The notes under the pieces were generated by a model. The model searched no databases and was not told the origin of the DNA. It saw only the letters and a program-made list of their open reading frames with translations. From the NCBI GenBank assembly GCA_003056245.1, contig MVDH01000001.1, positions 1,798,716 to 1,862,715 of the forward strand: a stretch of 64,000 nucleotides of DNA, given 5' to 3'. A program made the translations under genes and the position numbers. Origin of the DNA: Cellvibrio sp. 79 (lineage in GTDB: Bacteria; Pseudomonadota; Gammaproteobacteria; Pseudomonadales; Cellvibrionaceae). Positions 3,424-26,006 of the stretch are shown one piece after another (position 1 is the first letter of the stretch; the number at the start of each line of letters is the position of its first letter).

Positions 3424-4668
3424 ATGAGATATAAAAATTGCTTCGATAAAGAGCGCCGGGATTTCCTGAGCGCGATCAAGCGTTCCGGTATCGCCCTGGG
3501 TGCAATCCAGGCATCCAGCATGTTGGCTGGCGTTATGATGGCGCGTGTTGCAGAAGCGCAAACCGGTCCTGGTAAATCAGTGGCGGTGTTTATGCCTGGT
3601 GGTTGTACTCCGGCCAAATTCTTCCCGGCTGGCGGTAATTTGCCAATCCAGACTGCGCCGTTACAAAGTCACTACTCTGCGGGTCGTGTCGCCTTATTGA
3701 AAAACGCCACCATGATGAACGGTGGCCACGGTGTAATGTTTAACCGCTTCAATGATCCAAACCCATGGGGCAAGCAAAGCTTCGATGTGAACCTGGGTAA
3801 AACCCTCAGTGCAAACTCCAATGCACCGGTTAAGTGGTTGAACCTTGGTACTACTCCGGTTTCCGAGTTGTCACGTGACAGTGCTGGTATTCCAACGATT
3901 ACCAGCCCACAAGCTGCACTCGATGTTCTGTTTGCTGGCAACAATGGCGGCGGTGGTGGTGGCGCTGTGGCTCCACGTAAATCATTGGTAGATGTTCACT
4001 ACAAAGCAGTTAATGAGCTGAAAACCAAATTGGGTCAACATGAGAAAGAGAAGCTGGATAGTCACTTCAATTCGATCCGTGAACTTGAGGGCACTATCAC
4101 CTCGACTAACCCCGGTGGCAGCTGTCCTGCAATTACCAACACTTCTGCGGTTGGTTTTGATGCGACTTCCAAGTTGATGACCGATATTGCGGTATTGGCG
4201 TTGAGCTGTAACTTGTCTTATTCGGTATCCCTTGCTTTCGGTACCGATGAGCACTTGCATGTTCTGGATGGTGCCATGATTAAAGACACCACCGGTGCAT
4301 ACAGACCGCGTCCATCGCACGACTCGCACCACAATCAGGGCAACCCGAACTACGCCGGATACTACGATCAGGACGTAACTTACTACATGTCTCTTACCGC
4401 GCAATTGCTGGATAAATTACAAGCAAAAGGGTTGATGGATTCCACGGTTGTAACCCAGGTTTCTGATATGGGTAATGTGGATGCACATAGCGGTCAAAAC
4501 TGCCCAATGTTAGTTGCTGGCGGTGGTGTGCGCGGTGGAACGATTGATGTGGGTGGTTTAAGCCAGGTCAACTTGTTCCAGGCTGTAGGTGTAAGGCTGA
4601 AAGCTAACCAAGGTACAAACGGTAATTTGTTCAGAAACTGGGGTAGCCCCATTTCAGGACTGTTTTAA
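3424..4668 (+). CDS. DUF1552 family exported protein
   Basis: This 414-residue protein is of the DUF1552 family, which is usually encoded beside DUF1592-type cytochrome proteins, as here. The N-terminus has a Tat-like twin-arginine stretch (ERRDFLSAIKRSG, about residues 10-22) followed by a hydrophobic segment and an AEA-Q cleavage-like site near residue 46. A Gly-rich stretch lies near residue 180. The fold is related to the alkaline phosphatase/DUF1501 group, but the reaction is unknown. The ATG follows a GGAG motif at 3411-3414. It is the second gene of an apparent two-gene operon that ends at the terminator downstream. Probable role: partner of the CBM2-cytochrome protein in the periplasm or outside the cell. 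Confidence 0.85.
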   Translation: MRYKNCFDKERRDFLSAIKRSGIALGAIQASSMLAGVMMARVAEAQTGPGKSVAVFMPGGCTPAKFFPAGGNLPIQTAPLQSHYSAGRVALLKNATMMNGGHGVMFNRFNDPNPWGKQSFDVNLGKTLSANSNAPVKWLNLGTTPVSELSRDSAGIPTITSPQAALDVLFAGNNGGGGGGAVAPRKSLVDVHYKAVNELKTKLGQHEKEKLDSHFNSIRELEGTITSTNPGGSCPAITNTSAVGFDATSKLMTDIAVLALSCNLSYSVSLAFGTDEHLHVLDGAMIKDTTGAYRPRPSHDSHHNQGNPNYAGYYDQDVTYYMSLTAQLLDKLQAKGLMDSTVVTQVSDMGNVDAHSGQNCPMLVAGGGVRGGTIDVGGLSQVNLFQAVGVRLKANQGTNGNLFRNWGSPISGLF

Positions 4669-4742
4669 TACTGCTTAATAGTTAATAACGAGAGCGGCGG
4701 TTTGTTTACAAATCGCTTGCTCGAAGCAGGGAAGTTTCTTTC

Positions 4743-4792
4743 AAGCCGGTTGCAGAGTGTGTAGGAGAGCCACTTTGCTAATCGGCTTTTTT
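4743..4792 (+). terminator. Rho-independent terminator after the DUF1592/DUF1552 pair
   Basis: A two-part stem: AAGCCG pairs with CGGCTT, and inside it GCAGAGTG pairs with CACTTTGC with one G-U pair. It ends in a run of six T. It lies about 75 bp after the DUF1552 stop codon. Confidence 0.75.
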
Positions 4793-4914
4793 ATTGTTCC
4801 GAACTTGTTGGAAGCAATACCAGAGGCAGGGAATTGATGATGAGTTAATTATTAATACAGTGATAACAGGTAGCAGGAAGGCAGGATTTTTAAAAATGCA
4901 GGCCCTTAAATGAG

Positions 4915-5120
4915 TAGGGGCCGCATAAGCGGCCCCATACAGAATCTATCCCTAGGTCGAAGTAGTCAATCTGCGACGAGTTTCCTTTCGTATCCCTGAC
5001 CGCCTTTCCTCCTGCGCTAGTGCAATCCTTTGATGCCTCCAGAGGCATCGCATCCCTAAGTGGTGGGCGCATCCATTGACCTTTCCTGGCCAGCGCACAT
5101 CATTGTCTACTTCCTTGATG
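4915..5120 (-). ncRNA. Candidate CsrB/RsmZ-like CsrA-sequestering small RNA
   Basis: Read on the minus strand, the segment 5114 to 4949 holds eleven GGA triplets in 166 nt, several as AGGA or GGGA. Some sit in clear hairpin loops: a six-pair stem GATGCC/GGCATC at 5032-5049 with TCTGGA in the loop, and ACGA/TCGT at 4976-4991 with AAGGAAAC in the loop; CTAGGGATAG also presents GGA. There is no convincing ORF. Upstream are a -10-like GATAAT (5132-5127) and a GacA-type palindrome, and the 3' end is a GC-rich hairpin. Dense looped GGA motifs are the signature of CsrB/CsrC/RsmY/RsmZ RNAs, which titrate CsrA/RsmA. csrA is in this window, and in E. coli csrB lies a few genes from ppnN (from memory), the gene immediately upstream here. 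Start and end are estimates; length about 205 nt. Confidence 0.72.
4917..4936 (-). terminator. Terminal hairpin of the candidate Csr/Rsm small RNA
   Basis: A perfect eight-pair stem GGGGCCGC/GCGGCCCC with a four-base loop, extendable by GTA/TAC. On the minus strand it is followed by TACTCATTT, a weak T tract. Confidence 0.6.
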
Positions 5121-5126
5121 GTTCCC

Positions 5127-5132
5127 ATTATC
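5127..5132 (-). promoter_or_regulatory. Putative -10 element of the small RNA
   Basis: GATAAT on the minus strand, one mismatch from TATAAT. No good -35 is seen at 16-18 bp, as expected for an activator-dependent promoter. It would place the start near 5120, about 65 bp from the centre of the GacA-type palindrome. Confidence 0.45.
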
Positions 5133-5176
5133 CAGATCTGGCCAATGATGAGCTAGTCGCAAAATTCGCTAAGTTT

Positions 5177-5194
5177 TGTAGGAGATTGACTACA
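5177..5194 (-). promoter_or_regulatory. GacA-type upstream activating palindrome
   Basis: The minus strand reads TGTAGTCAATCTCCTACA, 18 bp. The consensus for the GacA/UvrY box upstream of rsmY, rsmZ and csrB is TGTAAG-NNATNN-CTTACA. Both outer TGTA/TACA arms, the central AT and the spacing are kept; three of the twelve arm positions differ. It lies 28 bp after the ppnN stop codon and about 65 bp before the inferred RNA start, like the placement at rsmY. Confidence 0.65.
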
Positions 5195-5222
5195 ACCTAT
5201 AACTATAAAATCATCTTTTCAT

Positions 5223-6635
5223 TCACTTTATAACCTTATAGCAAGGAATATACTCGCGTCCTGGCAGTTTCATCCGGCTTTGGCGAGCGAAAGATTCCAG
5301 CAGCTCGTCCACTGGATGCATAATTTCATAGTCGCCATGCAGTTCAAAATGGCCGAATTCTTCAATCGCCAAAATACCTTCTTCTTTCACATTGCCAGCA
5401 ACAATGCCAGAAAATGCCCGGCGTAAATTTGCAGCCAACTGATTCACCGGTTGGTTTTTATGGAGCTCCAGGTTGCGCATATTGTCATGGGTTGGAATGA
5501 ACGGTTGTTGCAAATCCGGGCTGATTTTCAGTTGCCAGTTAAAGTAGTAGGCGTCGTCACTGTATTTGCGGAATTCGCGGACTTTTTTGATGCCTTCTTT
5601 CATTTCGCGCGCAACTGCATCCGGATCATTCACAATAATTTTGTAATGTGATTGTGCTTCTTCACCCAAGGTATCGCCAATAAATTTATCCACGCGCTGG
5701 AAATATTCCGCAGAGGTTTCCGGCCCGGTGAAAATTAATGGGAATGGAATATTTTTATTTTCCGGATGCAACAAAATACCGAGGATATACAAAATTTCTT
5801 CTGTAGTTCCTGCGCCACCGGGAAACACGATAATGCCATGGCCAAGACGTACGAATGCCTCAAGGCGTTTTTCAATATCTGGCATGATCGCCAATTGATT
5901 TACAATCGGGTTGGGGGCTTCGGCAGCAATAATTCCCGGTTCGGTAATTCCTATATAGCGTCCGTTATTTATACGTTGTTTTGCATGGCCGATAGTGGCA
6001 CCTTTCATTGGGCCTTTCATTGCGCCAGGGCCACAGCCGGTGCAAATATCCAGGCCGCGCAAACCAAGTTGGTAGCCAACTTCTTTGGTGTAGTCGTACT
6101 CAATACGATTAATGGAGTGGCCGCCCCAGCAAACCACCAGGTTTGGGTCCAACCCCGGTTTTAACAAATTGGCGTTGCGCAGCATATGGAATACTGCATC
6201 GGTAATGCCTTCTGATGATTGCAAATTAAATTTGGTATTACCGTTAATTTCGTCGTTGTTGTAAATCACATCGCGCAAGACGGTAAACAAATGCTCGCTA
6301 ATACCGCGAATCATTTTGTCATCCACAAAAGCATTTGCAGGTGCATTTTTTACCGCGAGTTTTATACCGCGTTCTTCTTGCACAATGCTGATATCAAAAT
6401 CTTTATAGCGTTCCAGCAATTCTTTACCATCATCAAGGTCGTTACCTGTGTTGAGTACGGCAAGGGAACAATTGCGAAATAATTTGTATAAACCGCTTTG
6501 GCTGGAATCCAGCAGTTTGGCGACTTCCATTTTGGAAAGAATATTCAGTTGGTCGATGGGCGCAATCAGGGCATCAATGATTTTATGTTCGCCATTCGCT
6601 TGAAGTTCGGGTTGGTTGGGATTGAGGTTACTCAT
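5223..6635 (-). CDS. ppnN: Pyrimidine/purine nucleotide 5'-monophosphate nucleosidase (LOG family)
   Basis: PpnN (YgdH) hydrolyses nucleoside 5'-monophosphates to base and ribose 5-phosphate and in E. coli responds to (p)ppGpp. The product has the family N-terminal domain, the lysine-decarboxylase-like core with GCGPGAMKG and PGGAGTTEE nucleotide-site motifs, and the extra C-terminal domain, about 470 residues in all, near the usual length. I chose the internal ATG at 6635 (MSNLNPNQPE) because TAAGGAAT lies just before it; an in-frame ATG five codons earlier has no such site. The candidate Csr/Rsm RNA begins just downstream on the same strand. Confidence 0.93.
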   Translation of the reverse strand: MSNLNPNQPELQANGEHKIIDALIAPIDQLNILSKMEVAKLLDSSQSGLYKLFRNCSLAVLNTGNDLDDGKELLERYKDFDISIVQEERGIKLAVKNAPANAFVDDKMIRGISEHLFTVLRDVIYNNDEINGNTKFNLQSSEGITDAVFHMLRNANLLKPGLDPNLVVCWGGHSINRIEYDYTKEVGYQLGLRGLDICTGCGPGAMKGPMKGATIGHAKQRINNGRYIGITEPGIIAAEAPNPIVNQLAIMPDIEKRLEAFVRLGHGIIVFPGGAGTTEEILYILGILLHPENKNIPFPLIFTGPETSAEYFQRVDKFIGDTLGEEAQSHYKIIVNDPDAVAREMKEGIKKVREFRKYSDDAYYFNWQLKISPDLQQPFIPTHDNMRNLELHKNQPVNQLAANLRRAFSGIVAGNVKEEGILAIEEFGHFELHGDYEIMHPVDELLESFARQSRMKLPGREYIPCYKVIK

Positions 6636-6803
6636 GGTATTCCTTAGCATCAGTGGATGCGCTGGCTAGTGATCTTTTTAAGTCTGCTGTGACTAGTGTA
6701 GTGTTATTTTATCGGCCGTGCGTGCTGCTCTTCGCAGGCCATGAAAGAAATCGTGGCGTAATGTTGATGTGGTAGAGCAAAAATTAATCGAATAGAGGTG
6801 TGT

Positions 6804-25814: not shown

Positions 25815-26006
25815 ATGTTAATTTTGACTCGCCGTATTGGCGAAACTTTGATGGTTGGTGACGAAGTAACCGTTACCGTTTTAGGTGTAAAAGGCAACCA
25901 GGTTCGTATTGGTGTCAATGCCCCTAAAGATATTGCTGTACATCGTGAAGAGATTTATCAGCGTATCCAACGCGAAAAGCAAAATCAGGAAGAGCAAGAT
26001 AGTTAA
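25815..26006 (+). CDS. csrA: Carbon storage regulator CsrA/RsmA
   Basis: An RNA-binding post-transcriptional regulator, 63 residues, dimeric in the family. The sequence starts [16 protein letters not shown] and keeps the RNA-contacting Leu4/Arg6/Arg7 region and the [10 protein letters not shown] segment with Arg44-equivalent. It binds GGA motifs in leaders and is titrated by CsrB/RsmZ RNAs; a strong candidate RNA lies at 4.9-5.1 kb of this window. The leader of its own gene has GGA sites. A terminator follows. Confidence 0.97.

Follow-up and report, generated by a model that had tools for sequence, protein, structure and literature searches.

A GGA-rich unit beside ppnN

The window analysed here, a stretch of 64,000 nucleotides from Cellvibrio sp. 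79, carries a compact unit between ppnN, which lies upstream of it on the same strand, and a gene of the DUF1552 family, which is convergent to it (Table 1). Read along the minus strand, the unit consists of a palindrome resembling the GacA/UvrY box, which stands 28 bases beyond the ppnN stop codon, a GCGACTA block, the hexamer GATAAT, eleven GGA triplets (5114-4949), a hairpin of eight base pairs and the tail TACTCATTT. Judging from the position of the promoter elements, a small RNA (sRNA) would start near 5120, which places the centre of the palindrome TGTAGTCAATCTCCTACA about 65 nt before the start. A sequence-only reading of this DNA had already named an 18-bp palindrome of GacA-box design about 65 bp ahead of the start as well as a -10-like hexamer; both are present, and the palindrome is kept in related loci at a near-fixed spacing. 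The gene names ppnN, csrA, GacA-like, GacS-like, DUF1552 and Peptidase_M23 used for this genome derive from profile or sequence matches, while cpoB, pal, xseB, ispA, gspC, znuB, znuC, rplQ, rpoA, uvrA, uvrC and DTW-domain were read from translations.

Table 1. Features of the ppnN-side unit, its flanking genes and the csrA gene of the window (positions in the window).
Feature	Positions	Strand	Basis or remark
DUF1552-family gene, convergent to the sRNA unit	3424-4668		other flank of the sRNA unit
T-poor tail TACTCATTT after the terminator-like stem	4908-4916	minus	conserved in close orthologues
Putative CsrA-titrating sRNA, about 205-215 nt, 11 GGA	4908-5120	minus	GGA count, orthologue alignments (13 and 19), consensus fold
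Terminator-like hairpin, perfect 8 bp, GGGGCCGC-TTAT-GCGGCCCC	4917-4936	minus	compensatory changes
Long-range closing helix, 3' arm	4961-4969	minus	pairs with the 5' arm
Hairpin GGCC-AGGAAA-GGUC, GGA in a six-base loop	5078-5091	minus	pairing in orthologues
Long-range closing helix, 5' arm	5103-5111	minus	8 pairs with 4961-4969
-10 element GATAAT	5127-5132	minus	alignment of 31 promoters
Promoter block GCGACTA between box and -10	5154-5160	minus	conserved, alignment of 31 promoters
GacA/UvrY-box-like palindrome TGTAGTCAATCTCCTACA	5177-5194	minus	conserved, alignment of 31 promoters
ppnN, upstream neighbour, same strand as the sRNA	5223-6650	minus	NCBIfam NF038390, 768.7 bits (cut-off 450)
csrA, presumed partner of the sRNA	25815-26006	plus	NCBIfam NF002469, 120.5 bits (cut-off 73); Pfam CsrA, 87.8 bits (cut-off 27)

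The count of eleven GGA triplets in 166 nt, given in the sequence-only reading, is exact for the minus strand from 5114 to 4949, with the first G of the triplets at 5114, 5086, 5074, 5055, 5040, 5028, 5012, 5009, 4995, 4985 and 4951. The densest 166-nt stretch on either strand of the window is 4975-5140 on the minus strand, with 12 GGA, two of which come from the -10 region; the second-densest holds 9, and the minus-strand mean over the whole window is 2.2. Measured against the G-rich composition of the stretch itself the excess is moderate: dinucleotide shuffles of a 185-nt stretch yield a mean of 6.5 GGA, and 49 of 5000 reach 11. Taken as 214 nt, the sRNA contains 11 GGA, 7 ANGGA and no TCC. 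The number of GGA is 9-11 among 13 close orthologues and 11-13 among six that are more distant, with 0-2 TCC, and among the 13 close orthologues 7 of the 11 GGA triplets never vary, compared with 58 of 202 other triplets (one-sided Fisher p 0.021).

In the predicted fold the GGA at 5086 (in the six-base loop AGGAAA), at 4985 and at 5012/5009 lie in loops and the one at 5040 does so partly, in line with the earlier claim of at least three GGA in hairpin loops, while the triplets at 5114, 5055 and 5028, three of the eleven, are mostly paired. The mean predicted unpaired probability is 0.67 for GGA bases versus 0.44 for all bases.

Conservation of the promoter, the core and the fold

The palindrome TGTAGTCAATCTCCTACA matches the GacA/UvrY-box consensus TGTAAG-N6-CTTACA, as quoted in passages of PMC4950607 and PMC4682653, at 9 of 12 positions. 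With up to three mismatches to this consensus allowed, the window holds 16 sites, compared with 21.6 expected by chance; the palindrome on its own is thus not significant and proves nothing, so that the case rests on comparison across genomes. In an alignment of 31 promoters the C, A, C and T of the GCGACTA block are invariant in all 31 and its two G occur in at least 90%, and positions 2, 4, 5 and 6 of GATAAT (A, A, A, T) are likewise invariant in 31 of 31. The distance from the box to the core motif is 127-131 nt at every one of the 29 loci for which both ends of the unit were found by pattern, out of 33 loci with local matches (the exceptions being L003, L004, L005 and L028). Conservation of the GGA positions and of the palindrome in related genomes had been proposed as a check on the sequence-only reading, and both are conserved.

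A BLAST search with the region, at E up to 0.01, hit 22 of 57 genomes, its own included. A core model was built from the 29 loci; a match to this model denotes any member of the family and not the ppnN-side copy alone. At E up to 0.01 this model finds members in all 21 genomes of the genus (own included) and in 11 of 15 genomes that belong to other genera of the family (weakly, at 1e-4 to 1e-2, in five of the 11), but in none of the 21 genomes from other families of the order; the model was partly trained on loci of the same genus, and the genome survey used stricter filters, by which some weak matches were lost. A gapped-pattern scan of named genomes returned five stretches, two of them in unrelated organisms, which were taken as chance. 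Neighbouring genes were examined in 13 of the 21 genomes of the genus, and the RNA is confirmed beside ppnN in 12 (G000, G003, G004, G007, G009 and G013-G019). In a further genome of the genus, G012, the core model has three matches, none of which adjoins ppnN.

The arrangement behind ppnN raises the question of whether the conserved stretch instead belongs to the ppnN mRNA as a structured 3' untranslated region, whose GGA sites would regulate or stabilise that mRNA through CsrA. The two lie on the same strand with only 28 bases from stop to box, a terminator scan found none in between, and read-through from ppnN could also yield RNA from the minus strand. However, a conserved promoter stands between ppnN and the RNA, and the same promoter and core are found away from ppnN, next to neighbours in other orientations; we therefore consider an untranslated region very improbable.

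The consensus fold of 19 orthologues comprises the closing helix (5111-5103 with 4969-4961), the AGGAAA-loop hairpin (5091-5078), two short hairpins and the terminal stem. In the AGGAAA-loop hairpin 100% of the cells are paired among the 19 orthologues, and one of its pairs appears as G-U, A-U or G-C among the 29 loci. Over the whole consensus structure 97.3% of the cells pair, with two-sided changes at six pairs; the covariation score was reached by none of 500 shuffles, the structure slid by one to three columns pairs at 29-55%, and the further pair types number 14 versus a shuffle mean of 15.1, which is no excess; the rows are related, which inflates the other measures, and the alignment is also the one from which the structure was derived. 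The bulk of the covariation support sits in the terminal stem, where four of the eight pairs show two-sided changes. In the closing helix compensation is seen at one pair, A-U to G-C, in five of the 19 orthologues, and as these five are related it may reflect a single event. When 4905-5200 is folded, the palindrome pairs with the 3' part over about 17 pairs; this was set aside as an RNA helix, since the palindrome precedes the inferred start and another closing helix is supported inside the RNA.

The perfect eight-pair hairpin described in the sequence-only reading as the end of the unit was found at 4936-4917, followed by TACTCATTT and not by a T-run. In the alignment, a T-run after the terminal stem is absent from the window copy and from its 12 closest orthologues, and CTACTCATTT or CAACTCATTT forms the tail in 10 of the 13 close orthologues. 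The six more distant orthologues (L021-L026) have the same stem and then a T-rich tail.

Two further readings bear on these repeats and on the body of the unit. The palindrome and inverted repeats might constitute an element acting at the level of DNA, or a mobile repeat, in which the richness in GGA would be incidental. The promoter block does recur several times per genome, and an 11-base inverted repeat, noted by eye and also visible in the fold, connects the box to the 3' part; but the copies occupy recurring syntenic places while their bodies have diverged, and both the asymmetry between GGA and TCC and the pair changes point to an RNA, which makes such an element very improbable. The other is a gene for a very short peptide, for which an AAGGA followed at a plausible distance by ATG might speak, together with a frame of 15 codons that, in the window copy, opens at the first ATG of the RNA. 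Among 13 orthologues, however, the first-ATG frame is two codons long in four and varies in length in others. This frame, the one tested, is not conserved among the 13, for which reason the peptide was rejected; we regard it as extremely improbable.

Regulatory partners and relation to known sponge RNAs

An RNA of this kind would require CsrA as well as the GacS/GacA pair, and candidates for all three are encoded in the genome. The csrA gene that the sequence-only reading had noted 20 kb away was found at a distance of 20.6 kb, a second copy lies 97 kb away on the same contig, and two CsrA proteins exceed the Pfam cut-off. Both copies keep L4 and R44, two residues that PMC7652899 highlights in the legend of a figure; the second paralogue (L075, C1:1922103) has diverged from the window copy. 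A single protein of the own genome matches UvrY/GacA at E up to 1e-20, with 51% identity, and its gene is followed by an open reading frame read as uvrC. The NCBIfam GacA family is the best one for this protein (274 bits versus an equivalog cut-off of 280), and the BarA family is the best one for the GacS-like kinase (748 bits versus 890). A csrA scan of viral contigs gave no useful lead.

A comparison with Rfam had been suggested in the sequence-only reading. At gathering cut-offs, the window and 20 related loci contain tRNAs only and no match to CsrB, CsrC, RsmY or RsmX, and these four families also give none at E up to 10 in the 901-base search of 4600-5500, from which one lower-scoring overlapping match of the same clan was omitted. 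At relaxed cut-offs PrrB_RsmZ (RF00166) is the best Rfam match and alone among the near misses in being of a suitable type, with 18.8 bits against a cut-off of 44 (E 0.061, same 901-base search), and with a likewise sub-threshold 24.1 bits in the relative L029. The resemblance to RsmZ/PrrB of Pseudomonas lies in the many GGA, the 18-bp upstream box of GacA type and the strong GC hairpin at the 3' end; the differences are the length, about 210 nt here versus a model of 133 positions, and the box, which here is a degenerate TGTAGT-N6-CCTACA. E. coli CsrB and CsrC, themselves GGA-rich CsrA sponges under BarA-UvrY, share the richness in GGA and the box of GacA/UvrY type. The sections of PMC7652899 on CsrB count 22 GGA in the E. 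coli RNA, and those of PMC4682653 on UvrY describe its binding to an 18-nt inverted repeat, centred at -183/-182 before csrB (same source), in contrast to about -65 here.

The gene neighbourhood of E. coli csrB, on present evidence, is also not shared. The sequence-only reading had cited the closeness of csrB to ppnN in E. coli, and close they are (on opposite strands, at a distance of 1.8 kb, separated by syd and queF), but the value of this as support did not hold up. Outside the genus, 30 of 36 genomes were searched and ppnN was found at E up to 1e-30 in 23, at 24 loci; all 24 loci were scanned for GGA and 23 of them, all except the second G046 fragment, with the promoter model, and the RNA stands beside ppnN in one of the 23 ppnN-bearing genomes, G023. 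A shared ancestral ppnN-csrB neighbourhood is therefore not supported, and the similarity looks coincidental. The ppnN-side RNA of G023 has hairpins of the CACAGGATGTG type, close to the SELEX consensus RUACARGGAUGU that is quoted in the text of PMC7652899. In another genome, G026, a stretch with 10 GGA in 200 nt (L146) follows ppnN at a distance of more than 1 kb, on the opposite strand, and has no promoter-model match.

Conservation of promoter and core, GGA content, pair changes and the occurrence in the genome of csrA, gacA and a gacS-like gene thus speak for the proposed reading as a CsrB/RsmZ-type RNA, while the Rfam cut-offs were not reached. In our view, from what the DNA and its relatives offer, the stretch is the gene for an sRNA of about 210 nt that titrates CsrA under the control of GacA and resembles CsrB/RsmZ in function, a reading to which we give a probability of roughly nine in ten; the sRNA is very probably an unannotated new example of a well-known type of control. 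We infer transcription, binding of GacA and of CsrA, and an effect on target mRNAs along the following lines. GacS/GacA would sense a signal, and phosphorylated GacA would bind the box and activate the promoter with its -10 element GATAAT. The resulting RNA would begin near 5120, form the long closing helix and several loops bearing GGA, and end at the terminator-like hairpin. Its GGA sites would bind CsrA dimers, whereby mRNAs repressed by CsrA would be freed. Induction by GacS/GacA, capture of CsrA at GGA loops and the lifting of its repression make up the established mode of action of CsrB/Rsm RNAs according to passages in PMC7652899 and PMC4682653.

Among the open-licence PMC papers listed for Cellvibrio and Saccharophagus, none describes such RNAs in its title or the opening of its abstract, and an earlier computational prediction is possible. 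Neither PMC4682653 nor PMC5568370 names Cellvibrio in its main text. GacS, GacA and CsrA of Teredinibacter are noted in PMC2699552, a text from which the term 'small RNA' is absent. The Rfam models miss this set of RNAs at their cut-offs, so similar RNAs may lack annotation in other Gammaproteobacteria.

Related loci in Cellvibrio and GacA-box promoters before protein genes

Cellvibrio has been studied for the breakdown of plant polysaccharides, and Pseudomonas syringae is known to possess sibling Rsm RNAs, namely rsmX1-5, rsmY and rsmZ. Much as in P. syringae, several GacA-box sponges appear to exist per genome in Cellvibrio, here in a set that spans 4 to 18 GGA. In the own genome the core model detects a locus beside a DTW-domain gene (E 1.5e-21), which belonged to its training set, and loci on the cpoB side (7.5e-10) and the xseB/gspC side (2.6e-5), which belonged only to the training set of the promoter model. 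Neither training set contained the GGA-rich unit that lies between rplQ and uvrA, and its matches are weak, with E values of 0.014 (core model) and 0.039. The promoter model has seven sites at E <0.05 in this genome, five at RNA loci and two at leaders of protein genes, four of the seven having been in its training set. Counted from the inferred start to the terminator-like end, the DTW unit has 7 GGA, the cpoB unit 18, the xseB unit 4 and the rplQ unit 8, compared with 11 in the ppnN copy. Exact closing stems measure 15 bp in the DTW unit, 9 bp in the cpoB unit and 11 bp in the xseB unit, and the rplQ unit ends, as read by eye, in GGGGCTT-loop-AAGCCCC followed by TTTTT. The genome thus very probably carries about five such RNA genes, the ppnN copy being one of them, and the same places are occupied by RNA loci in other genomes of the genus. 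If this holds, five or more sponges would provide a genetic handle on the Csr system in Cellvibrio.

Some genomes show variations in the number and arrangement of these loci. The one core-model match of G015 (L113) is a GGA-rich RNA between cpoB and ppnN, two places that are occupied separately elsewhere; this points to a common origin of the cpoB and ppnN copies, with L113 possibly preserving the ancestral arrangement. G025 has two GGA-rich units with GacA boxes in tandem (L140), with about 330 nt from box to box. In G019 (L126, L127) and G006 (L131-L134) the rplQ-type RNA is present in several similar copies, which lie on different and often short contigs and represent either an expansion in copy number or a duplication in the assembly.

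Promoters of the same design also precede protein genes. At five loci, one in the own genome (L041, C9:526084) and one in each of four further genomes of the genus (L088, L100, L118, L130), a GacA-box promoter with a GCGACTA-like block stands before a conserved small gene of 72-78 residues that adjoins znuB on its downstream side. The models find this locus in the own genome with E values of 7.8e-4 and 6.1e-6, no locus of this kind having been part of the training. For the protein encoded in the own genome, neither Pfam (E up to 0.01) nor NCBIfam (E up to 1e-10) gives a match. There is no GGA cluster behind the promoter; an AAGGA lies in the ribosome-binding region, within AGCAAGGA in four of the five genomes, and by its sequence it is a possible CsrA site. 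As a tentative proposal, held with somewhat less than even confidence, a single type of GacA-box promoter in Cellvibrio might drive at least five graded CsrA sponges (4 to 18 GGA) and a protein-coding mRNA as well. If true, the znuB-adjacent gene, the clearest case, would constitute a feed-forward loop, in which GacA both transcribes an mRNA and frees this same mRNA from CsrA. Reports on direct mRNA targets of GacA in P. aeruginosa conflict: a passage of PMC4682653 cites an earlier study in which sRNA genes are the only direct targets, while PMC6610081 describes direct binding of GacA at several protein-coding promoters. A weaker match of the promoter model in the own genome (L043, C1:1262374; E 1.1e-4) lies upstream of a gene for a protein with a Peptidase_M23 domain.
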